The notes under the pieces: generated by a model
The model's input: the letters and a program-made list of their open reading frames with translations, nothing else
The model's database searches: none
What the model was told of the DNA's origin: nothing
In this document: positions 2,978-34,172 of the stretch, in pieces
Layout of the letters: every line of letters starts with the position of its first letter
How positions within the stretch are numbered: the stretch's first letter is position 1
From: a virus
Direction: 5' to 3' (one strand)
Length of the DNA: 50,144 nt
Virus record (IMG/VR): IMGVR_UViG_3300046820_000446
Coordinates: 1-50,144 of that record
Translations under genes and position numbers: made by a program

Positions 2978-3967
2978 CTATAGCATCCTTGATTCAGGTG
3001 GATCGTTTGGGTATCTCTCATCAAGTAATCTAAAATACTCTTTATAGGATAGCTTTGCTGCATGCTCATATGCCGCCAATAATTCCATGTTTGGAGCACC
3101 CCAGTAGCCCGTGTATTCTCCCGTAAATATCTTCCTTGACTTCTTTAATGCCCTGTGATTCTTATCAAAATAATGTTTAGCTAACTCATCAGTCTTAAAG
3201 TATGCAGACCTTCTCATGTACGGGTTAACATTATTATAGCCCTTATTTAAATGCCAGACCACGGGTTCATTTATTGCAAATATTCTATATCCTCTTGTCC
3301 ATAACCTTAAAGCCAGCAGTGATTCTTCTGGACCAAACATGATGGTGGTATCTGGTCTTACTTCATCAAATACGCTTGGATCAGAAAAAATAAAGTGTCC
3401 TGCTATCTGGTGATGCTCAATGTATCCTTCTGGTATTTCTTCCCACTTTGTATAGTCTCCTGTAGGCTTAGGATACTTAGCTCTAAGGCTATCTTCAACA
3501 TCAAACTTCATTCCGCCATTATGGAATGTCTTTATATCTGAAGAATATGCAAAGAATTTTCCATTTTGTTTGACAGCCCACCACGGAACATAGTATGATA
3601 TAACTGGCTTAGGATACTTCAACTTTATCTTTTCAAACTTATTTATTAAGATTGTGTCCCAGTTTTTTTGAAATAGCATATGTGCATCTAATTGAAGATA
3701 ATAGTCTTCCCCATCATAGAACGCATGAGCCATCTCTCTTCCAATACAGCAACCTAGGGCTGCTGGGTAATCAAAGTAGCCTACCTTTAAGTTCTTAGAG
3801 TATGCAGATAGGTCTTCTTTTAAGCCGTGGCTATCGTGCAAGAATAAGCCTATCTTAATTCTGTCAGGAAATTCAGCATTACTTAAACAATTACTTATCA
3901 TTAAGTCTAGATACAACTCGTTGAATGCACCTAGATTTATGAATATAGTCTTGCTATTTAGCTCCAT
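2978..3967 (-). CDS. GT60-type glycosyltransferase (Skp1 GlcNAc-transferase-like, PF11397)
   Basis: A 329-residue GT-A-type glycosyltransferase. The segment GEDYYLQLDAHMLFQKNWD (near residue 87) carries the metal/nucleotide-sugar motif in the DxH form used by the Skp1 hydroxyproline GlcNAc-transferase family. GHFIFSDPSVF, FGPEESLLALRLWTRGY and VVWHL match the later part of the same family. No signal peptide, so it is cytoplasmic. Known family members add GlcNAc to hydroxyproline. It lies three bases after a 2OG-Fe(II) oxygenase gene, which would be the matching hydroxylase. Acceptor and sugar donor are unknown; a surface- or virion-protein target is inference. Confidence 0.75.
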   Translation of the reverse strand: MELNSKTIFINLGAFNELYLDLMISNCLSNAEFPDRIKIGLFLHDSHGLKEDLSAYSKNLKVGYFDYPAALGCCIGREMAHAFYDGEDYYLQLDAHMLFQKNWDTILINKFEKIKLKYPKPVISYYVPWWAVKQNGKFFAYSSDIKTFHNGGMKFDVEDSLRAKYPKPTGDYTKWEEIPEGYIEHHQIAGHFIFSDPSVFDEVRPDTTIMFGPEESLLALRLWTRGYRIFAINEPVVWHLNKGYNNVNPYMRRSAYFKTDELAKHYFDKNHRALKKSRKIFTGEYTGYWGAPNMELLAAYEHAAKLSYKEYFRLLDERYPNDPPESRML

Positions 3968-3970
3968 GAA

Positions 3971-4684
3971 TTAGCAGTCGTCAGCTGTACTCACAGGTAT
4001 ATTGTCTGGATCATTCCATGAAGCACCATATAATGTGTGTCTCCAATTGCCAGAAGTAATTCTAGTAACTCTATGCTCGAAGTCTTTCGTTACTGGTACT
4101 CCTACTAGCATTCCTGCTTTAGGCTTAATCTTGTATGGCTTATGCTTAAACTCAAGGATTCCGCCCTCGTAATCATCATTGAGATATAAAGATAATGAAA
4201 GCTTAAATGGAGGCACTGGGCTTGTTTCGTCCCATTCAGAGTGCCAGTTCATTGCCCAATCTACCTTGCTAGGATCAAGTGGGATAGTACCGCCAAGCGT
4301 GAGCTTTTCTCTATCTCCATCATTTAAATCTCTTGCAATCTCTTCATCTGTGCAATACTTAAATGTCTGAAGCGATGCATGTGGTCGGTATATTGGTGGC
4401 ATAACCTGAAGCAATCTATCAAATACCCCACCTGGGTCGCTTAACATTGGGTAGTAAATTCTTGGGTCATCAGGTGTTGCAACTCCTGTTGTTCCATCTT
4501 CATTTCTTGGAATATCATTTTCAATAAACTTATTTAAAATATTTTTGTATGGTGAACGCATGGTTGTATACCATCCATCATGATCATCCATAAAAGGCTT
4601 AAAGAAATCCAATTCTTCTTGTGTTAAGAAGTTCTCTATGTACCATAGATCACCTTCTATAGTTACTTTTTCCATGTTTGACAT
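3971..4684 (-). CDS. 2OG-Fe(II) oxygenase, prolyl-4-hydroxylase-like
   Basis: A 237-residue double-stranded beta-helix dioxygenase. His148 with Glu150 (WHSEW) would be the first two iron ligands, an HxE rather than the usual HxD. LYLNDDYEGGILEF is the typical strand pair, His204 (FEHRV) is the third ligand and Arg215 (RHTLYG) binds 2-oxoglutarate. Such enzymes hydroxylate proline or other side chains. Being directly upstream of the GT60-type transferase suggests the two act in sequence. A second ATG (MEKVTIE) is an alternative start. Confidence 0.75.
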   Translation of the reverse strand: MSNMEKVTIEGDLWYIENFLTQEELDFFKPFMDDHDGWYTTMRSPYKNILNKFIENDIPRNEDGTTGVATPDDPRIYYPMLSDPGGVFDRLLQVMPPIYRPHASLQTFKYCTDEEIARDLNDGDREKLTLGGTIPLDPSKVDWAMNWHSEWDETSPVPPFKLSLSLYLNDDYEGGILEFKHKPYKIKPKAGMLVGVPVTKDFEHRVTRITSGNWRHTLYGASWNDPDNIPVSTADDC

Positions 4685-5497
4685 TTAAGTCTCCTTTATC
4701 TTATTGATAGTATATTGAAAATTTCTATTTTCGTCTAAAACATCTAGCATTTCATATTGAGCGGCATTATTGCCAGCCACTACGAAGTCATTCTCTGGTA
4801 TCTCATCTATATTATACCTAATCTCTGTTACTCTGCCGTTTCCGATATGATTCTTGCATGAAGTTACCACCCTAGGTGGAGTTAAACTAGTAGCATCAGG
4901 GCTCATAGGTGGCCCTATAATCAACCATGTTGTAGCTGGTGATGAGCAAAAATGGCATTCAATAGTAGATAGCTTATTTAATGTAACCTCCACCTTGTCT
5001 TCAGATACCTTTGCTGGCTCGTTTACCTTGTATGGAGACTCCATCTTGTTATGCTTGCTCATTGCAGTGTTAGGTATTGGAGTAGACTGTAGGGTGTATG
5101 TATAATCAAATAATCCCATACCATCTAGTGGTAAGGCTGGGGCGCACAAATGATCAATTATGATATCTGCATCAGGCATACTGTTATTTAAATAAACATC
5201 TGCCACCACTTTGGCAGGGTACACATCACTTGTTATTCTGATATTGATCCAGCCGTTTGTAAGAACAACATGCCCTTGAATAAAACCATATTGCATACAG
5301 TTTGTAATCATTGGGTCAGATATTCTTTGACCTAGATAGTTCTTATGAATTACTTGATGACCATAATCGCATAGATGCTCTTCTTTATAAGAAGTTAATC
5401 CAGTAAGCACCGCTTTTAATATATATGAATCAGTTATTGGGTTCATTGTAAACCCAGTAATCGTCAGCCTAGATTCAACATTGTGAGGCAAATCCAT
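4685..5497 (-). CDS. Two-domain protein: weak AdoMet-decarboxylase-like N-half plus zinc module
   Basis: 270 residues. The stretch near residues 72-105 (GHVVLTNGWINIRITSD then AKVVADVYLNN) has the strand pattern of the core of S-adenosylmethionine decarboxylase, but the catalytic Ser/His/Cys residues are not apparent. If related it is inactive or repurposed. The C-terminal half has CHFC and later CKNH, the same CxxC...CxxH module as 5497-5634. It abuts the oxygenase with no gap. Function unknown. Confidence 0.5.
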   Translation of the reverse strand: MDLPHNVESRLTITGFTMNPITDSYILKAVLTGLTSYKEEHLCDYGHQVIHKNYLGQRISDPMITNCMQYGFIQGHVVLTNGWINIRITSDVYPAKVVADVYLNNSMPDADIIIDHLCAPALPLDGMGLFDYTYTLQSTPIPNTAMSKHNKMESPYKVNEPAKVSEDKVEVTLNKLSTIECHFCSSPATTWLIIGPPMSPDATSLTPPRVVTSCKNHIGNGRVTEIRYNIDEIPENDFVVAGNNAAQYEMLDVLDENRNFQYTINKIKET

Positions 5498-5647: not shown

Positions 5648-6232
5648 CTACGCAATAGCCGCTTCATCAGACAAGGTATCAAACTCGATATCTGATGTTA
5701 TTTCAAAGAATGTTCTTAGCTTGGCAGAGATCTGTGGATCATCTAGGTGTACCTTTAAAAAGTTAGGCTTATCTTTGAAGAATTCTTCCACTGCAGCATA
5801 ATGCTCAGCATAGATAGTTCTTAGCTCTTCTTCTGTGAGATCTGAAATCTTAGTTTTTGATGTATCTAAATATGCCTTACAGAAAGCCTCTTCAAACTGA
5901 TATGGCTCAGCGCTTGCATACTTCTGCATAGTCTTACCCCATACATCTAGCCACTTCTCTACGTCTTTTTGGAGACAGATAAACTTTGTATCTGAATCCT
6001 TTTCGTAGGCATGCTTAAATGCTAGGTTAATTGGGAAGTCAATAATAACATCTACTGATCCGTCATCAACAGAATCTAGATATGACTCAATTCCAGATAG
6101 GTTCTCGTAATATGTGCCTACTGGGATTCCGCTGTAATCATAGAAGTATTTTACCTTAAAGCCTGAATCTGTTAAAAATGTGCGTAAGCCTCTTCCGCCG
6201 TTAAGATTTAATCCGATTGATTTAATTTTCAT
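5648..6232 (-). CDS. Sulfotransferase-like protein with variant P-loop
   Basis: 194 residues. The opening MKIKSIGLNLNGGRGLRTFL occupies the place of the PAPS-binding loop of sulfotransferases but lacks the usual G-x-S-G-T. The later pattern (DVIIDFP, then KFICLQKDVEKWLDVW, then AEHYAAVEEFF, then FLKVHLDD) follows the Sulfotransferase_4/Stf0-like fold in order. It may transfer sulfate to a sugar, peptide or lipid, or be a degenerate copy. An AGGGGGAT ribosome site precedes the ATG. Confidence 0.5.
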   Translation of the reverse strand: MKIKSIGLNLNGGRGLRTFLTDSGFKVKYFYDYSGIPVGTYYENLSGIESYLDSVDDGSVDVIIDFPINLAFKHAYEKDSDTKFICLQKDVEKWLDVWGKTMQKYASAEPYQFEEAFCKAYLDTSKTKISDLTEEELRTIYAEHYAAVEEFFKDKPNFLKVHLDDPQISAKLRTFFEITSDIEFDTLSDEAAIA

Positions 6233-6724: not shown

Positions 6725-7772
6725 ATTTGCTTAATGATTCTATTATATCATTCCAGATATCTTCGACATCCTCGCATCCAACAGATAATCTAATTAAACT
6801 TTCAGAGACCAAAGGGCTCTCTAGGGCCCAACGCCTTCTTCTTTCCCATATTGATTCCACGCTTCCAAGGCTAGTAGCATTAGCAATAAGCTTTGATCTG
6901 TTGCAAATATCTTCAACTTCTTCTGGTGAAGCGTCTACTTCAAATGAGATCATGGCGCCAAACCCTGGGTAATAAACTTTTGAAATCATTGGGTGATTAC
7001 TAATTAAATTAAAAAGCTGCTTTGCATTTGATTCTGCTTTTTTAAATCTTAATGGAAATGTTCTAATTCCTCTGAGGGCAAGCCATGCTTCAAATGGCTG
7101 TGGTATTGTGCCATTGATTTTTCTTGCAAACTCTACTGAATCATATAGGCCTTGATTATTAAAAGATATAGAGCCCATCAATACATCACTATGTCCAGCT
7201 AAATACTTAGTGACAGAGTTCATAGACATATCTGCACCCAACTCCAGAGGCCTCTGGTTAATGGGAGTTGCAAAAGTATTATCAACTCCAACAATAACTC
7301 CAGTTCTATTACATGCTCTGATAAGTCTGTTTAAATCAGCTATATCAAGTCTTGGATTTGTTGGAGACTCCAGCCATAGCATGTAAGCACCTTCGATGCT
7401 GGCTAAAACTTCTCCAGTATTTGATATGTCAACAAATCTTGCAAATATCTTGCCTTCATCATGAAGTTTTTGCATAGTTGCATTAACTCCAGCATAGCCC
7501 TGATTTGATGAGACAACTACTGATCCAACTGGTATTGTTGAAAACAAAGAGCTTATTGCTGACATTCCTGATGCAAATGCTAATGTCTTTCCGCCCTCTA
7601 ATTGAGATATCGTTTCCTCTAGCGAGATGCATGAATCATTTCCATACCGACCATATCCCCATGATCCACCTGCTGTGTAGGTAGAATTAAGTGATACTGG
7701 TGTGTTTAGCGGTCCATCTGGGTATCGATCTGGCCTTCCGCTGGAAATGGCTCTTGTTTCAAATGAATACAT
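6714..7772 (-). CDS. Cys/Met-metabolism PLP enzyme (cystathionine gamma-synthase/lyase-like)
   Basis: 352 residues of fold-type I, gamma-family PLP enzyme. Landmarks in order: YGRYGNDS substrate/PLP region, ALAFASGM-type loop (TLAFASGMSA), WLESPTNP, VDNTFATP, and SVTKYLAGHSD with the PLP lysine at K189. The ending (SLGSVESIW...LIRLSVGCEDVEDIW) is canonical. Compared with bacterial enzymes (about 380-400 aa) it lacks roughly 20 residues between VYYPG and FGAMISFEV. Family members handle homocysteine, cysteine or sulfides. In phage this gene is rare; here it sits among modification enzymes, so it may feed or remove sulfur or make a novel side chain. Confidence 0.8.
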   Translation of the reverse strand: MYSFETRAISSGRPDRYPDGPLNTPVSLNSTYTAGGSWGYGRYGNDSCISLEETISQLEGGKTLAFASGMSAISSLFSTIPVGSVVVSSNQGYAGVNATMQKLHDEGKIFARFVDISNTGEVLASIEGAYMLWLESPTNPRLDIADLNRLIRACNRTGVIVGVDNTFATPINQRPLELGADMSMNSVTKYLAGHSDVLMGSISFNNQGLYDSVEFARKINGTIPQPFEAWLALRGIRTFPLRFKKAESNAKQLFNLISNHPMISKVYYPGFGAMISFEVDASPEEVEDICNRSKLIANATSLGSVESIWERRRRWALESPLVSESLIRLSVGCEDVEDIWNDIIESLSKYAR

Positions 7773-8416
7773 TATATCTTTTTAGAGTGATCGAAGATAA
7801 ATGCAGGAAGCACATATCTGAATGGGCCATCTATTACATGCTTTACTCCATGCTCGTATTCCTCAGTTGCTGGGAATATCATGATACTACCCTTTGGTGG
7901 TTTAATCTGTATATTTTTGTGTGTAAAGTAAAGTTCTCCGCCATTATAATCATCATTAATATAAGCAACTGATGCCCAGACATGTCTTACATCTGCTCTA
8001 TCATCGTAGTGTGCTTTTAACTCAGTGCCTTTATACATTCTCTGTATAGTTCCAAAGCTTCTGAATTCAAATCCACAATCACTGCTAAAAAATTTTGATA
8101 CCCGCTCTGGCAAATCTTGAACAAGATGCGTCTTACCACTCAATGGTGTAACCTTGTCGTCCCAGTTATCGGTTCTTTCTATGCCTGCAGCATCTATATC
8201 ACGCTTGCCAGTAAGCTCTTCTGCACGATCTTCTAGGTGCTTGGTGTAGTGCAGTTGAAGACCCCAGTCTTCATCTGTAGAATTATTTATAATATCCCAA
8301 AGAATACTGAGGTCTTCATCTGTTAAAAAGTTTTTTATAAGGAGAATGTTCTCATCAAGCTGCTCAAACTGATACCCTTGATTTACAATAGCATCTATAT
8401 TTAAAACGCTCACCAC
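7772..8416 (-). CDS. 2OG-Fe(II) oxygenase, prolyl-4-hydroxylase-like
   Basis: 214 residues. His136 and Asp138 (AHYDD) and His189 (YEHGV) form the iron triad and Arg200 (FRYVLP) is the 2-oxoglutarate anchor; YINDDYNGGELYF is the usual core. The start is one of two tandem GTG codons; GTG 8413 has the better distance from the GGAG ribosome site. It follows the gene block of small Cys-rich and Pro-rich peptides, which are possible substrates. Confidence 0.75.
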   Translation of the reverse strand: MVSVLNIDAIVNQGYQFEQLDENILLIKNFLTDEDLSILWDIINNSTDEDWGLQLHYTKHLEDRAEELTGKRDIDAAGIERTDNWDDKVTPLSGKTHLVQDLPERVSKFFSSDCGFEFRSFGTIQRMYKGTELKAHYDDRADVRHVWASVAYINDDYNGGELYFTHKNIQIKPPKGSIMIFPATEEYEHGVKHVIDGPFRYVLPAFIFDHSKKI

Positions 8417-8427
8417 AACTCCAATAT

Positions 8428-8517
8428 CTAAATGATGGGAGAATCTAGAACCCCATCTATTGCATCATCAATGTTAAATGAATGTTCTTTTGAACAATCA
8501 CCACATGATCTACACAT
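8428..8517 (-). CDS. Cys-rich microprotein MCRSCGDC (29 aa)
   Basis: Starts MCRSCGDCSKEH: three cysteines in the first eight residues, then an acidic tail. Its ATG overlaps the upstream stop (TAATG). It shares the MCxxCGxC opening with 8716-8904 and 9261-9365. Possible metal-binding peptide or modified-peptide precursor. Confidence 0.5.
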   Translation of the reverse strand: MCRSCGDCSKEHSFNIDDAIDGVLDSPII

Positions 8518-8723
8518 TAAACTTTCTTTCTACCGCTTTTTTTAGGTGGCTTAGGTACTAAGCTTGTTTCTCTTCGAATGCCATGCTTATTAGTATCTAT
8601 TCTTACACCCTGCCTTGGATATCTCTTTGGCGTGTTTGTGCTTGTTACAGCACCAGCAGGTGCACCAGCGTTAGCTGGTGGAACCATGCCAGTACCATCT
8701 TCTTTTTTAAAACTATTAGTCAT
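8517..8723 (-). CDS. Pro/Ala-rich basic small protein (68 aa)
   Basis: Low-complexity centre (VPPANAGAPAGAVTSTN), then a basic C-terminus ending PKPPKKSGRKKV. No fold is expected. It lies between two Cys-rich microproteins and one gene away from a prolyl-hydroxylase-like oxygenase, so its prolines are candidate modification sites (inference). Confidence 0.5.
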   Translation of the reverse strand: MTNSFKKEDGTGMVPPANAGAPAGAVTSTNTPKRYPRQGVRIDTNKHGIRRETSLVPKPPKKSGRKKV

Positions 8724-15580: not shown

Positions 15581-15893
15581 TGTTCTTTCCTCCTGGCTTT
15601 CCTTCAAGCTCAACTCTTACTCCATATGATTCCAAGATATTTTTTACCATTTCTACATATTCTATTACTCTGACTCTCATTGAGCCATCAAATTGTGCAA
15701 AGTTATCTTCATATAACCTTATAGCTAAAAACTCTGGATACTTGACTATATCCATCTGCAAAGCACTTGTTGGCTTTGCTAACTCTCTTATCTTTAGAGC
15801 CATTGCTTTATTATAGAATACTGGTTTATTTGGCTCACCAGTCCATTCATTAATTCCATATTTAAAATGATTCTTGTTCTTATCAATAAACAT
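15573..15893 (-). CDS. Conserved hypothetical (106 aa)
   Basis: Mixed alpha/beta protein with FAQFDGSMRVRVIEYVEMV. Immediately upstream of, and overlapping, the CYSC zinc protein, a pairing I associate with actinophages. No catalytic motif seen. Confidence 0.55.
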   Translation of the reverse strand: MFIDKNKNHFKYGINEWTGEPNKPVFYNKAMALKIRELAKPTSALQMDIVKYPEFLAIRLYEDNFAQFDGSMRVRVIEYVEMVKNILESYGVRVELEGKPGGKNNG

Positions 15894-16194
15894 GTTTTTC
15901 CTTTATTCTTCTCCACACATCTTTAGTCTTATGTGCATTTCTAGATTTATCAACTGATCCAGAGCTTAGGAATACTCCACCCCATACCCCATAATCTGCA
16001 TTTTCAATCCCGCTATCATGGCATATCTTTATTACTGGACAAGACAAGCATGCCTCATCAATGCTTTTTGCGATGTTGATATCTGATTCATATTTATCAA
16101 AAAATAGATTGGTATCCATGCCTTTACATAGCGCAAGGTCCCACCATTTTGGATCTTCTTTTTCTATACCTAAATTATTTAAAATACTTGACAT
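15883..16194 (-). CDS. whiB: WhiB-family Fe-S transcription factor
   Basis: From Met at 16194 (103 aa): Cys23, Cys49, Cys52, Cys58 (ACLSCPVIKIC) are the four ligands of the 4Fe-4S cluster and DYGVWGG (67-73) is the family turn; a basic tail follows for DNA binding. WhiB proteins are restricted to actinobacteria and their phages and act with the primary sigma factor. A longer ORF reaches 16281 but would overlap the upstream gene by 107 bases. Likely redirects host or phage transcription. Confidence 0.85.
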   Translation of the reverse strand: MSSILNNLGIEKEDPKWWDLALCKGMDTNLFFDKYESDINIAKSIDEACLSCPVIKICHDSGIENADYGVWGGVFLSSGSVDKSRNAHKTKDVWRRIKEKHVY

Positions 16195-16408
16195 ATTTTT
16201 TTGGCAGCTTCCAAATTCCTTCACGGCTGACAGAAATTTTTTCTGACTTGCCCCAAGCATCTTTTCTATACATTCCGTCAACAGAACTATAGCCGCCGTT
16301 ATCTTTTTTCCAAATCACAAGGTCATAGTTATTCCAAAATGAATCTTGTGTTTTTGATTGAGACCTTTTGATAAAAATCTCAACACCTTTCTCCGTTAAA
16401 TGTAACAA
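16175..16408 (-). CDS. Hypothetical protein (77 aa), TTG start
   Basis: Reads from TTG 16408 just after tRNA-Leu; an AAAAGG site is about 10 bases upstream. Contains DLVIWKKDNGGYSSVDGMYR and a basic end. It overlaps the WhiB start by 20 bases, so the two may be coupled. Confidence 0.45.
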   Translation of the reverse strand: MLHLTEKGVEIFIKRSQSKTQDSFWNNYDLVIWKKDNGGYSSVDGMYRKDAWGKSEKISVSREGIWKLPKKYVKYFK

Positions 16409-24830: not shown

Positions 24831-24904
24831 TGCGGCAGGTAGGACTCGAACCTACGATTACCGAATTATGAGTTCGGGGCTTTAACCAACTAAGCTACTG
24901 CCGC
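24831..24904 (-). tRNA. tRNA-Met or tRNA-Ile2 (CAT)
   Basis: 74 bases; acceptor GCGGCAG/CTGCCGC, anticodon loop CTCATAA, T-loop TTCGAGT. Its first 23 bases overlap the end of the carbamoyltransferase ORF, so the message and tRNA must be separated by processing. First tRNA of the eight-gene cluster. Confidence 0.85.
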
Positions 24905-26327
24905 TAGTTAGTATATTATATCCGTAATGCGCCTGCCAGTCAATAGCATCTTGATGATCATTTAATAGTGGTTGGCCTTTTATATTTAAACTTGTATTTA
25001 ATAATATTGGAACGCCCGTATGAATATAGAATTTATTTATTGCTCTCCATAATCCTCTATGCTGTTCTCTATTTACAGTTTGAACTCTAGATGTTCCGTC
25101 TACATGCACAACAGATGGAATTTTTTCTGGCTGTAAACACTTAACCGTGTATTGCATGTATGGGCTTGTAAACTTCATGTCAAACCATTTTGAAGCACAT
25201 TCTTCTAAAACAACTGGTGCAAATGGTCGGAACTGCTCTCTTTGCTTAATTAAGTTGACTTTATCTTTAATGTTTGGATCTCTAGGATCTGCAAGTATGC
25301 TTCTATTCCCTAAAGCTCTTGGGCCATATTCAGCTCTTCCGCTTGCAACTGCAACTATTCCATCTTTAAGTATTGCATCAACTATATCTTTTACTGGATA
25401 CTCTCCGCCCATATCGTATCCAAGATATGGAGTTTTCCAGTCAACATGCTTTCCATATAAAGCTAGTGCAGCTCCTAAAGAACTGCCAGCGTCGCCAGGA
25501 TTTGGCATAATCCAGATATCTTTAAATATGTTCCATAGCAATGTGTTGGCTTTGCTATTTAGGGCACAGCCACCCATGAATACAAGATTTTTCTTTCCAG
25601 TCAGTCTCTTAGCCATACTCATGAAGTCTAGGAGTCTTTGCTCATATACTACTTGAACTGCCGCTGCTATATCAAACTTATCTTTTTCTTCAATATCAAA
25701 TCCCCAGTCTGTTATACCCTTATGGAAATTGTATGTTTGAGTATGATATTTAGGGAAATAGGCATCTACTTCTTTATAATATCTTTTCCAGTCTCCGTAT
25801 GCAGCCATGCCCATCATTATGTATTCTTCTTGGTTGGGCATCAGGCCAATCAGATCCGTGAATGCTGAATAAAATAATCCAAAGCTTACTGGGTAGTCTT
25901 GCTTATACTTTAACTTAATTGACTCGCCTTCTCCCACCCATATGGTAGAAGTGTTATATTCTCCCATTGCGTCAAGTACTACTATTGCAGCATCTGTAAA
26001 TTTGCTTGTATAGTATCCTGCACATGCATGTGAGTAATGATGCTTAAATGATTTCCTAGGCACACCTTCAATATTAAACTTTGGCTTCCAATCCCCTGCA
26101 CCACCCCTTAGAAATAGCCTGGAGGCCTTTAGAAGCGGTTTCTCATAGTAGGCTATAGCATCAGGTGCACCGTATGATAAAGCATCATTAATTAATTCAT
26201 TATTGATATACCAATCATTTTTTTGTTTACTATATCTTTCAGCATGCCCAGCAAAAAGGATCTCTCCATCTTTAATTAAAGATGCTGATGCATCATGAGA
26301 AGTTTCATTAATACCCAATATAATCAT
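24882..26327 (-). CDS. Carbamoyltransferase (NodU/CmcH/TobZ family)
   Basis: 481 residues. N-terminal Kae1-like domain: MIILGINETSHDASASLI, and HHYSHA at 96-101 for metal binding. C-terminal domain: GRAEYGPRALGNRSILADPR and REQFRPFAPVVLEE. These enzymes make carbamoyl-AMP from carbamoyl phosphate and ATP and transfer the carbamoyl group to a sugar or other hydroxyl. It is somewhat shorter than the usual 550-570. Next to two SGNH-type genes, so a glycan or modified base could be the acceptor. Stop lies inside a tRNA. Confidence 0.85.
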   Translation of the reverse strand: MIILGINETSHDASASLIKDGEILFAGHAERYSKQKNDWYINNELINDALSYGAPDAIAYYEKPLLKASRLFLRGGAGDWKPKFNIEGVPRKSFKHHYSHACAGYYTSKFTDAAIVVLDAMGEYNTSTIWVGEGESIKLKYKQDYPVSFGLFYSAFTDLIGLMPNQEEYIMMGMAAYGDWKRYYKEVDAYFPKYHTQTYNFHKGITDWGFDIEEKDKFDIAAAVQVVYEQRLLDFMSMAKRLTGKKNLVFMGGCALNSKANTLLWNIFKDIWIMPNPGDAGSSLGAALALYGKHVDWKTPYLGYDMGGEYPVKDIVDAILKDGIVAVASGRAEYGPRALGNRSILADPRDPNIKDKVNLIKQREQFRPFAPVVLEECASKWFDMKFTSPYMQYTVKCLQPEKIPSVVHVDGTSRVQTVNREQHRGLWRAINKFYIHTGVPILLNTSLNIKGQPLLNDHQDAIDWQAHYGYNILTSGSSLVG

Positions 26328-33278: not shown

Positions 33279-33387
33279 TTTTTATCCTTTTGTCTAATTT
33301 GTCTATAAATAATCCAAGCGGGTATCCTAGAGAGAATCCTATCATAATACCTAAAAGAAAGATAGTCATTAAAAGCATAGCCTCCAT
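33265..33387 (-). CDS. Single-span membrane microprotein (40 aa)
   Basis: MEAMLLMTIFLLGIMIGFSL is one membrane span, then a basic tail (DKLDKRIKNDRR). Overlaps both neighbours. Unknown role. Confidence 0.5.
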   Translation of the reverse strand: MEAMLLMTIFLLGIMIGFSLGYPLGLFIDKLDKRIKNDRR

Positions 33388-34172
33388 ACCCCGTCACATT
33401 TTTTACCAAACCCTTGTAAGGTAATTCTTCTATCGTTACTCATTGGCTTTTGCGTATGACCAACAGCATGATATATTGCACCTTCTTGAAAAAATATTTG
33501 TCCTGGCTTATGCTGTACAATATCTGGAATCTTATTTTTGATATTATTTTCAAGCATATATACATTGTCTGGGTATGATGTGTAGTCTATAGACTTAGCC
33601 CATTTAGCATACTCTGTATTAGAAAACAGCCCTTTGTCTTCCTGATCCCACAGAGCAATACTTGCTCCAAATTCAGGAACATCAATTGCAAATGTAAAAG
33701 ACATTGTTGTTGTGTTGTCAACATCAGAGTATCTATTCCATAAGTAATTAAGTCTATCTACTTGAACATCTCTATGTATTGCACTTACTGTCTCTGTACG
33801 CTCCAGCTCGATTGGCTCTTTGCGTGACTTAGGCTCTCCATATATGTAGAATCCAGGTAGGGGTCCATCAGATATTAGCTCACATTCTCCTAGCTTAGTT
33901 GATATTTCTTTAACAGCCTTGTCGTAAAGTGGATGAAAGTATTTTAATAGCATTGCATTGCTTTCACGACATCTTGCAATGTATTCTTCACTAGCATCTT
34001 CTTCGTGCGTTGGCCCATCTAAATGAGTGGCAAGGCCTAAAGTATAATAGTGTCCTCCGTTAAACTTACGAATAGACCATCTGTCATATAGGGAATCAAT
34101 TAGGTTTGAATAATGTATTGTTTCCGCTTCAGTTAGGAGCTGTGACACATAATACTGTCCAACATTACTCAT
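33369..34172 (-). CDS. 2OG-Fe(II) oxygenase-like protein
   Basis: 267 residues. His133 and Asp135 (AIHRDVQ), a later His in GAIYHAVGHT, and Arg in RRITLQGFG fit the dioxygenase active site. Larger and different from the other three. It sits in the replication block, so it might act on DNA or a DNA-binding protein rather than proline. Strong GGGAGGAG site. Confidence 0.6.
   Translation of the reverse strand: MSNVGQYYVSQLLTEAETIHYSNLIDSLYDRWSIRKFNGGHYYTLGLATHLDGPTHEEDASEEYIARCRESNAMLLKYFHPLYDKAVKEISTKLGECELISDGPLPGFYIYGEPKSRKEPIELERTETVSAIHRDVQVDRLNYLWNRYSDVDNTTTMSFTFAIDVPEFGASIALWDQEDKGLFSNTEYAKWAKSIDYTSYPDNVYMLENNIKNKIPDIVQHKPGQIFFQEGAIYHAVGHTQKPMSNDRRITLQGFGKKCDGVWRLCF

Follow-up and report, generated by a model that had tools for sequence, protein, structure and literature searches.

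A GT60-type glycosyltransferase gene adjoining a prolyl-hydroxylase-like oxygenase gene in a phage, and recurrence of the pair in viral relatives

A stretch of viral DNA of 50,144 bases (the window) carries a gene for a glycosyltransferase of the GT60 type beside a gene for a 2OG-Fe(II) oxygenase. Do the two enzymes hydroxylate proline and then glycosylate the new hydroxyl, and if so, on which protein? The adjacency was confirmed at 2978-4684: the oxygenase ORF ends 3 bases 5' of the GT60 ORF, with both on the minus strand and the oxygenase upstream (Table 1). A sequence-only reading had proposed a phage version of Skp1 hydroxyproline glycosylation, and as a whole this interpretation is partly supported by the analysis below.

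Table 1. Positions in the window of the gene pair, its predicted functional residues and other genes discussed in the text
Feature	Position	Strand	Observation
GT60-type glycosyltransferase, 329 aa	2978..3967	(-)	PF11397; ppGalNAc-T-like GT-A fold (predicted)
E214-E215 of transferase	3323..3328	(-)	E214 in 39/43, E215 in 41/43 aligned viral GT60
H239 of transferase, candidate metal-binding His	3251..3253	(-)	His 30/43, Thr 11/43 aligned
D94-A95-H96, DxH motif of transferase	3680..3688	(-)	D94 and H96 invariant, 43/43 aligned viral GT60
2OG-Fe(II) oxygenase, 237 aa, prolyl-4-hydroxylase-like core	3971..4684	(-)	PF13640
R215, predicted basic 2OG-binding residue of oxygenase	4040..4042	(-)	Arg 31, Lys 19 of 50 aligned
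H204, predicted third iron ligand of oxygenase	4073..4075	(-)	Invariant, 50/50 aligned
H148-x-E150, predicted iron ligands of oxygenase	4235..4243	(-)	H148 in 50/50; position 150 Asp in 49/50, Glu here alone
Sulfotransferase-like gene, same cluster	5648..6232	(-)	PF17784 E 1.6e-8, 35.1 bits, cut-off 22.8
Second PF13640 oxygenase of cluster	7772..8416	(-)	43.9 bits, cut-off 27
Carbamoyltransferase	24882..26327	(-)	PF16861 E 8.7e-56, PF02543 E 2.3e-36

The two enzymes

Assignment of the transferase to PF11397/GT60 was borne out by HMM search (E 1.1e-30, 107.8 bits versus a cut-off of 21, profile positions 88-275 of 352), PF11397 being the sole Pfam family matched at E up to 1, and the two motifs quoted in its favour, D94-A95-H96 and F211-G-P-E214-E215, are both present. 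Against PHROGs the protein matched phrog_24687 (glycosyltransferase) at 2.1e-22 and phrog_9633 weakly. Its predicted structure (pLDDT 90.4) was superimposed on GalNAc-T2 with a VIA Z of 22.8 (rmsd 3.3, 277 aligned), and among the matches listed ranks 1-29 were all ppGalNAc-Ts (Z 22.8-19.4), the next fold being LARGE1 (Z 17.2). By the example of the ppGalNAc-Ts, the DxH motif presumably binds metal and the sugar nucleotide, and we take the candidate metal-binding role of H239 from the same enzymes. A search of PDB sequences with the transferase gave no match, one with a 43-sequence profile gave two weak, partial matches (best E 0.2), and the profile search recovered no GT27 sequence. Among solved structures the transferase was placed by fold search alone, and the link between GT60 and GT27 holds by predicted fold only. 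Inference of function across GT60 has been called speculative, similarity being low (PMC3797821). The view of GT60 as a hydroxyproline family stood for the Skp1 route but not for the family at large: pp-alphaGlcNAcTs of GT60 are also described as initiating mucin-type O-glycans (PMC8724618), and many phage GT60 genes lie beside (PT)n repeats without an oxygenase. In our judgement the window transferase very probably O-glycosylates polypeptides. By tblastn against annotated phages it matched three records (one Xanthomonas and two Stenotrophomonas phages), the transferase of locus L003 matched none of the annotated phages, and a single scan across genomes of bacteria and archaea yielded 2 weak relatives of the window transferase.

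The gene three bases upstream does encode a 2OG-Fe(II) oxygenase, with a marginal PF13640 score (29.2 bits versus a cut-off of 27). It had been credited with a full set of ligands; H148, H204 and R215 are present, but the expected Asp is replaced by Glu150, alone among the 50 aligned sequences. Active HxE oxygenases are known. A PDB search with the oxygenase sequence alone returned one chance-level chain (E 0.46), and a profile of the oxygenase and 49 phage relatives reached solved prolyl 4-hydroxylases (P4Hs) first (E 6e-14) and then prolyl 3-hydroxylase; the same 50-sequence profile also reached TET-like dioxygenases (E 7e-7). The structural model (pLDDT 70.2, with low-confidence stretches outside the core) matched an algal P4H (VIA Z 16.2, rmsd 3.3, 167 aligned) that had been co-crystallized with a Ser-Pro peptide, and rows 1-15 of the fold list, among the matches listed, were P4Hs only, although this preference is partly a database effect because solved 2OG structures abound in prolyl hydroxylases. 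Bacterial P4H, collagen P4H and the viral P4H of PBCV-1 (5c5t, 5c5u) were matched as well. Structure prediction thus agreed with the proposed enzyme pair, giving a polypeptide-glycosyltransferase fold for one protein and a prolyl-hydroxylase-like core for the other, and we consider the window oxygenase to be probably a protein prolyl hydroxylase. Its tblastn matches in annotated phages were part-length and came from 66 records, all of Synechococcus phages.

Linkage of the two families in viral relatives

A longer contig of 120,465 bases (G001) covers the full 50,144 bases of the window at 99.97% identity. It contains ten PF13640 genes, and with 12 oxygenase models among its 152 gene models the chance of an oxygenase neighbour is about 15%. 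Adjacency of the pair alone therefore proves little in this virus, and the linkage owes its significance entirely to the recurrence of the pairing in relatives. Among 108 dereplicated viral GT60 genes an oxygenase was the next gene in 20, a figure raised because the A2 query came mostly from oxygenase-bearing loci, versus 0 of 236 random viral genes (Fisher p 2e-11), and an oxygenase lay within four genes in 23 of 108 versus 0 of 236 (Fisher p 5e-13). For the random control, 617 kb in 66 loci were picked with a single 15-base pattern; in the longer records of this control PF11397 occurred in 0/25 and PF13640 in 1/25. Gene models were the longest non-overlapping ORFs rather than gene-caller output, and the GT60 start in L016 is over-extended. 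Adjacent GT60-oxygenase pairs were co-oriented in 24/26 cases, and in 21/26 the genes overlapped or were separated by 30 bp or less (two oxygenases counted twice in both figures). In a first, less biased GT60 set, PF13640 was found anywhere in 6/80 records, and in 4 of these 6 the oxygenase adjoins GT60 (both among the matches listed).

These relatives reject chance adjacency of the two families, and the suggestion of an operon-like arrangement is supported: the linkage is recurrent. It is also confined to part of the family. No oxygenase lay within four genes for 85/108 GT60 representatives, and one clade of 46 rows in the GT60 tree had no oxygenase neighbour (the tree held 107 of the 108 representatives plus the window, one of under 240 aa having been dropped).

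Proline-rich repeat proteins and oxygenase arrays

A Pro-rich gene was present within four genes on the same strand for 28/108 GT60 representatives versus 9/236 controls (p 5e-9), with a slight excess among GT60 genes accompanied by an oxygenase (8/23, compared with 20/85 for those without). Ser plus Thr content of the repeats was lower in GT60 loci with an oxygenase (8 rows, compared with 20 rows lacking one; p 0.005, one-sided), in a small test whose rows are not phylogenetically independent and in which two loci were entered twice. In L244/L245, which encode identical proteins and count as one case, a protein containing 53 consecutive prolines is followed 0.7 kb downstream by mutually overlapping oxygenase and GT60 genes.

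Oxygenases were also associated with repeats irrespective of GT60. When genes with PFFPPFF repeats were picked by DNA pattern alone, 52/64 had an oxygenase within 3 kb (26/34 after dereplication) and 12/64 had none, whereas only 3/54 (PT)n-repeat genes had one (dereplicated 2/37), all among the matches listed. For these scans 116/120 PPFF and 120/120 PT stretches were used, of which 20 and 16 were without a repeat ORF; from the remaining 96 and 104, those with less than 3 kb downstream were omitted, leaving 64 and 54, and the PPFF loci partly overlap the oxygenase-locus sample. Viewed from the oxygenases, of the dereplicated loci for which 4 kb or more of upstream sequence was available, 23/28 had a repeat gene in that stretch among the matches listed, a count that omits 10 loci with shorter upstream sequence (5 of them with a repeat gene). 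In these samples oxygenases thus associate much more often with Pro-aromatic than with Pro-Thr repeats. FN3 domains occur in the repeat proteins of G001, L015, L236, L260, L288 and L299, and an S74 domain in that of L210. In cyanophage S-SCSM1, seven annotated 2OG genes flank tail-fibre genes, three of which seven were recognized by our oxygenase model, and the 22 kb examined had no ORF above the Pro threshold. We think it likely, with good confidence, that the arrays of oxygenases in phages act on the PPFF-type repeat proteins encoded beside them.

Searching 80 oxygenase loci for GT60 at E 1e-8 found none among the matches listed, and of 20 records from which such loci came (all of them fragments, 34-101 kb long, three having no more than two oxygenases at the locus) 17 had no PF11397 match, again among the matches listed; hydroxylation would then mostly proceed without GT60.

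In the window virus itself, the Pro-rich ORF at 8517-8723 had been put forward as a substrate, for which the case is weak. Better candidates lie in G001 outside the window, namely an FN3-(PPFF)n protein, which is followed by seven PF13640-type oxygenases and has genes encoding Mtd_N and S74 domains around it, and a second, impure repeat protein. The pair is at 51,583 in G001, whereas the impure repeat protein (80,016) lies 28 kb away and the PPFF protein (88,104) 36 kb away, and at such distances its substrate may be another protein. Against annotated phages, megablast with the first 25 kb of the window and tblastn with the FN3-PPFF protein (low-complexity filter on) gave no match.

Interpretation and comparison with known systems

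We favour, with a probability of roughly 0.47, the reading that the pair modifies Pro-rich virion proteins: phages would hydroxylate the prolines of such proteins and, in some lineages, then O-glycosylate them by means of GT60. The oxygenase would hydroxylate proline side chains in the Pro-rich, unfolded repeat of a virion protein (fibre or adhesin), and the GT60 enzyme would then move a HexNAc-type sugar from a UDP-sugar onto the new hydroxyl, a transfer that may be likened to that of Gnt1 on Skp1 hydroxyproline and to GT60 mucin-type O-glycosylation. On Thr-rich (PT)n repeats the transferase would need no hydroxylase, and on Pro-aromatic or Pro-only repeats the hydroxyls would come from oxygenases. 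From the evidence above we infer proline as the hydroxylated residue and as the site of transfer, a GlcNAc-like sugar and a virion protein as carrier. Successive action of both window enzymes on one residue is conceivable at slightly less than even odds. Still more tentatively, one widespread group of tailed phages might build hydroxyproline-rich, partly Hyp-O-glycosylated, extensin-like fibres, where the 2OG arrays would not be auxiliary metabolic genes but would serve virion maturation by acting on (PPFF)n-type proteins, with GT60 as the glycosylation arm, acting on Hyp in Pro-aromatic or polyproline repeats and on Thr in (PT)n.

The pair could instead comprise two independent modifiers brought together via a shared pool of protein-modifying genes, the GT60 enzyme acting in mucin fashion on Ser/Thr of a virion or secreted protein and the oxygenase on another residue or protein. 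Inclusion of mucin-type O-glycosylation enzymes in GT60 (PMC8724618), the many GT60 genes beside (PT)n without an oxygenase, the 46-row clade, the ten PF13640 genes of the window virus and the 17/20 records lacking PF11397 (among the matches listed) are all in line with this, yet the tight co-oriented coupling in relatives, the lower Ser and Thr in repeats of oxygenase-bearing loci and the polyproline protein close to an overlapping oxygenase-GT60 pair make it rather unlikely. Auxiliary metabolism, put forward for cyanophages in PMC3037559 and repeated in PMC9602691, would have phage 2OG oxygenases deplete 2-oxoglutarate or take part in DNA repair, with the transferase a neighbour by chance; it has a slim chance, as it leaves unexplained both the oxygenases beside PPFF genes (52/64 versus 3/54 for (PT)n, among the matches listed) and those touching GT60 genes.

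Tailoring of the host envelope, a phage exopolysaccharide or a lipid, where the transferase would extend a glycan by one sugar and the oxygenase, sulfotransferase and carbamoyltransferase would modify that glycan, is suggested by the gene content of the window, which also includes PLP-enzyme and radical-SAM genes. Glycan tailoring is a possible role of the sulfotransferase-like gene, and possibly of the carbamoyltransferase, because close homologues of the latter (68-69% identity; blastp, Pfam) lie a few genes from GT60 in L014 and L015; in Xanthomonas phage XacN1 a carbamoyltransferase gene directly follows the GT60 gene. A sulfotransferase match, below cut-off, was likewise obtained for a GT60 protein of L400. 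The fold list of the window transferase includes TarS and TarP, transferases of wall teichoic acid, at Z about 16, but the best ppGalNAc-T reached 22.8 versus 16.9 or less for polysaccharide and teichoic-acid enzymes (more than 5 Z apart, among the matches listed), GT60 members described in PMC8724618 act on proteins, and Pro-rich repeat genes recur beside GT60, so that we consider such tailoring improbable. Least credible is DNA hypermodification, with a TET/JBP-like oxygenase yielding a hydroxymethyl base that the transferase glycosylates. Phage base-hypermodification systems with an oxygenase and a glycosyltransferase do exist, TET-like dioxygenases are within reach of the oxygenase profile, and a different oxygenase of the window matches Tet_JBP below the cut-off; however, prolyl hydroxylases fit the profile far better (E 6e-14 versus 7e-7), and the transferase has a predicted polypeptide-transferase fold. 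DNA hypermodification, envelope glycan tailoring and 2OG drawdown were set aside as the main reading.

If hydroxylation and glycosylation of Pro-rich virion proteins is correct, bacterial viruses have hydroxylation-dependent protein glycosylation, a fibre chemistry by which stability and host binding may be controlled, and the small P4H/GT60 pairs of such viruses would be useful tools. The recurrence of oxygenase arrays with Pro-aromatic repeat proteins offers a concrete, testable substrate for phage oxygenase genes. Among the open-access papers listed in our searches (preprints and most subscription journals lying outside), none by its title and abstract opening reported phage hydroxyproline glycosylation or phage PPFF-repeat proteins with oxygenase arrays. 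Viral use of prolyl 4-hydroxylase has been called cryptic, with collagen in viral tail fibres mentioned (PMC9301287), and bacteria and viruses have been said to lack the prolyl hydroxylases required for collagen (PMC3368898).

Among known systems, the PhyA/Gnt1 pathway of Dictyostelium and relatives, in which cytosolic enzymes, a prolyl 4-hydroxylase and then a GT60-kind pp-alphaGlcNAcT acting on hydroxyproline, modify Skp1 (PMC8724618), is alike in its P4H-type and GT60-type enzymes. The likeness is one of chemistry only, and nothing points to Skp1 or oxygen sensing in the phage: that pathway has Skp1 as substrate and oxygen sensing as output, whereas the proposed phage substrates are repeat-rich virion proteins. 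Skp1 is a eukaryotic protein. Mucin-type pp-alphaGlcNAcTs (GT60) and ppGalNAc-Ts (GT27), which are not known to need a hydroxylase partner, share the transferase fold and the DxH motif, and Pro/Thr-rich repeats like those of mucin-type systems lie beside many phage GT60 genes; at 329 aa the window transferase is too short to include the C-terminal lectin domain that animal GT27 enzymes carry. The P4H of PBCV-1 is virus-encoded like the phage oxygenase, PBCV-1 and mimivirus being giant viruses of eukaryotes. In mimivirus a viral glycosyltransferase works on hydroxylated collagen (PMC9546862), the target being collagen hydroxylysine. Phage glycosyltransferases are thought to glycosylate the capsid protein of mycobacteriophage virions, the opening of that abstract mentioning no hydroxylase (PMC11256854). 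Extensins and other hydroxyproline-rich glycoproteins of plants and algae, which carry Hyp-O-glycans (PMC8724618), have Pro-rich repeats in common with the phage proteins, and we claim no evolutionary link. Among the matches listed for the window oxygenase, the algal P4H scored highest by VIA Z of all solved structures. Plant Hyp glycosyltransferases belong to other families, and if our reading is true, phage fibres may be decorated somewhat like plant cell-wall ones.

The gene pair, its virus and the predicted enzymes

Both ORFs of the sequence-only reading were found where it had placed them, adjacent on the minus strand with the oxygenase upstream and 3 bases between the genes. The oxygenase matched PF13640 marginally in Pfam (29.2 bits against a cut-off of 27). 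All 50,144 bases of the window aligned at 99.97% identity with one strand of G001, a 120,465-base contig which, judged by sequence, is the wider genome of the window's virus; its ends seem to overlap, as the 45 N-terminal residues of ORF 808-1269 recur at 116,526. A WhiB gene hints at an actinobacterial host. Immediately upstream of the oxygenase, an ORF of 270 aa (4685-5497) had no match in Pfam or PHROG, and ORF 33369-34172 matched WelO5, a 2OG halogenase family, below the cut-off.

Features of the window, of its wider genome G001 and of related loci (L numbers; L097 is part of the same virus)
Feature	Position	Strand	Match or remark
GT60-type transferase	2978-3967	-	PF11397
2OG oxygenase	3971-4684	-	PF13640; upstream of transferase
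WhiB transcription factor	15883-16281		PF02467, 43.4 bits
Second repeat protein	G001 80,016-82,898		impure repeat
FN3-(PPFF)n protein	G001 88,104-89,411 (L097:8104-9411)		two FN3 matches, (PPFF)n repeat, Hint-like end (Hint below cut-off)
Nine genes after the FN3-(PPFF)n protein	up to G001 95,989 (L097:8104-15989 in all)		seven PF13640, one DUF6065
GT60-O-fucosyltransferase fusion	L226:2434-6450		directly behind oxygenase
GT60-GT7 fusion	L235:7983-10382
GT60 protein with sulfotransferase match	L400:4255-7152		match below cut-off; Acidimicrobiales MAG contig
Polyproline protein, two small ORFs, overlapping oxygenase and GT60 genes	L244:5751-8437 and L245:6163-8849

As to whether the transferase might score best to an unrelated glycosyltransferase family, PF11397 was the only family matched in Pfam (1.1e-30, 107.8 bits), and the predicted model (pLDDT 90.4) was closest in fold to GalNAc-T2 (Z 22.8, rmsd 3.3 Å over 277 residues). 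Polypeptide GalNAc-transferases occupied ranks 1-29 of the fold list (lowest Z 19.4), followed by LARGE1 (17.2) and by bacterial polysaccharide and teichoic-acid enzymes (16.9 or less). Residues D94 and H96 were invariant in 43/43 aligned sequences, and sequence-profile search from the transferase did not reach GT27. According to excerpts of PMC8724618, GT60 comprises the pp-alphaGlcNAcTs that act in mucin-type O-glycosylation, together with a related enzyme that acts on hydroxyproline of Skp1; an excerpt of PMC3797821 cautions that inferring function across the family is difficult. Our best inference is that the acceptor is a peptide, modified at hydroxyproline (Hyp) or Ser/Thr.

A profile of the oxygenase and 49 phage relatives, searched against solved structures, matched prolyl 4-hydroxylases (P4Hs) first (E 6e-14), then prolyl 3-hydroxylase (1.5e-12) and PKHD-type hydroxylases (from 1.6e-11), and more weakly TET-like dioxygenases (7e-7) and PHD2 (from 6e-6). 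The model was uneven (pLDDT 70.2); its core scored Z 16.2 against algal P4H and Z 14-16 against the bacterial, collagen and PBCV-1 enzymes. The full set of ligands claimed earlier held for H148 and H204, but position 150 of the H-x-E...H motif is Glu where the other 49 sequences have Asp, a real caution for this copy as judged from the alignment.

Oxygenase and GT60 genes are linked in viral relatives

Since G001 encodes ten PF13640 genes by Pfam and twelve oxygenases by our own model, an oxygenase beside GT60 is not a rare event in this virus; the pairing exceeds chance not in the window's virus alone but among relatives. GT60 genes abound in viruses, with matches in at least 555 stretches. 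PF13640 occurred anywhere in 6 of the first 80 records and adjoined GT60 in four of the six (L014, L015, L016 and L057), on both flanks in L016 and L057. These 80 records and a second, clade-centred set gave 164 genes, reduced to 108 representatives at 80% identity, of which 20 had an oxygenase as next gene (an upper figure, because the clade-centred query was made mostly from loci with oxygenases) and 23 within four genes. The control, 236 genes encoding 250 aa or more in 66 viral loci drawn at random (617 kb), gave none at either distance (Fisher p = 2e-11 and 5e-13, respectively); oxygenase and GT60 matches were absent from all 617 kb. Adjacent pairs lay on the same strand in 24/26 cases and were overlapping or at most 30 bp apart in 21/26. 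On the GT60 tree of 108 rows, the oxygenase-neighbour labels took 12 changes, compared to a mean of 22.3 when shuffled; the wider clade of the window's GT60 had an oxygenase neighbour in 17/31 rows, and another clade in 0/46.

Pro-aromatic and Pro-Thr repeats divide between loci

Genes with at least 15 Pro within some 60 residues, on the same strand and within four genes, accompanied 28/108 GT60 representatives and 9/236 control genes (8/23 GT60 representatives with an oxygenase, 20/85 without). Repeats of (PT)n type adjoin GT60 genes without oxygenase, which suggests, by sequence, mucin-like glycosylation of Thr in these phage proteins; such ORFs stand next to GT60 in L035, L051, L059, L066, L067, L072, L075, L084 and L090. 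Pro-aromatic repeats (PPFF, PPTF, SPPSFFGPP) or polyproline occur in certain GT60 loci with an oxygenase (L015/L200, L016, L201, L210, L236, L244/L245 and, farther off, L217). Exceptions were L226 and L251, with an oxygenase and Thr in the repeat, and L088, L206 and L215, whose loci lack an oxygenase although the repeat is nearly devoid of Thr/Ser. Ser+Thr content of the repeat was lower with an oxygenase near (one-sided p = 0.005 in a small test of 8 versus 20 related rows, two loci counted twice). The cleanest system for bench work is that of L244 and L245, whose genes are identical: a protein with a 53-proline run and no Pfam domain found lies 0.7 kb from the downstream oxygenase and GT60 genes, and its 61 prolines use mixed codons (CCT 40, CCA 18, CCG 3).

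Four array-type oxygenases, used as queries, found at least 543 relatives, from which 80 loci were taken; 71/80 had four or more oxygenases and 61/80 a plus-strand Pro-rich gene. Of the 28 dereplicated loci that extended 4 kb or more upstream, 23 had a repeat gene within those 4 kb, and the repeat windows consisted of Phe (45%), Pro (43%) and Ser+Thr (3%). In the converse test, genes were picked by DNA repeat alone and kept if 3 kb or more of sequence followed them; among the matches listed, an oxygenase lay within 3 kb of 52/64 PFFPPFFPPFF genes versus 3/54 (PT)5 genes (Fisher p = 5e-18; dereplicated 26/34 versus 2/37), and GT60 of 3/64 and 7/54, respectively; these loci overlap in part with the 80 arrays. 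Similar PPFF-oxygenase arrangements recur in many viral contigs. In G001, the PPFF array is surrounded by genes with Mtd_N and S74 domains. Hint- or intein-like C-terminal parts, each below the Pfam cut-off, follow the PPFF repeat in the FN3-(PPFF)n protein of L097, in L299:6556-7878 and in L260:2550-3959.

A possible hydroxylation-glycosylation route and known systems

We propose that P4H-like phage oxygenases would hydroxylate prolines of the extended repeats; in certain lineages, including the window's, a GT60 enzyme would then cap the new hydroxyls with sugar. The gene families, the folds, the linkage and the division between Pro-aromatic and Pro-Thr repeats are shown by the data; the residue modified, the sugar, the order of steps and the carrier protein are what we infer here. 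We speculate that both modifications could render the very hydrophobic (PPFF)n rod stiff and soluble. Against this model, GT60 was found in 0/80 array loci and PF11397 was absent from 17/20 records behind such loci (records that may be fragments); PF11397 occurred in 0/25 random long records. In the window's virus, 28 kb separate the pair from the impure repeat and 36 kb from the PPFF protein, 12/64 PPFF genes among the matches listed had no oxygenase within 3 kb, and the window's oxygenase carries HxE; all these likewise count against it.

Further glycan tailoring is hinted at by the three GT60 fusions and composite proteins in the table and by the window's sulfotransferase and carbamoyltransferase; the L400 contig also encodes an oxygenase and an Ala-Pro-rich ORF. 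A carbamoyltransferase gene directly follows GT60 in Xanthomonas phage XacN1 (L004:7998-11715), and such genes lie a few genes away in L014 and L015.

In excerpts of the literature, phage 2OG oxygenases count as auxiliary metabolic genes, being read as genes for 2OG drawdown or DNA repair (PMC3037559), and viral P4HA is called 'cryptic' (PMC9301287); an oxygenase-repeat-GT60 association in phages was not reported in the titles and abstract openings of the open-access literature searched. Cyanophage S-SCSM1 has 24 oxygenase copies according to an excerpt of PMC9602691; in this isolate, seven annotated 2OG oxygenase genes flank tail-fibre genes (L402:3885-12907), and one stretch of the short tail fibre is rich in Arg, Gln and Pro. 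If shown, the association would answer an open question on phage 2OG oxygenases. Each half is known from eukaryotes and giant viruses, as the Skp1 pathway and the PBCV-1 P4H, and collagen modification is known in mimivirus (PMC9546862, in excerpt).
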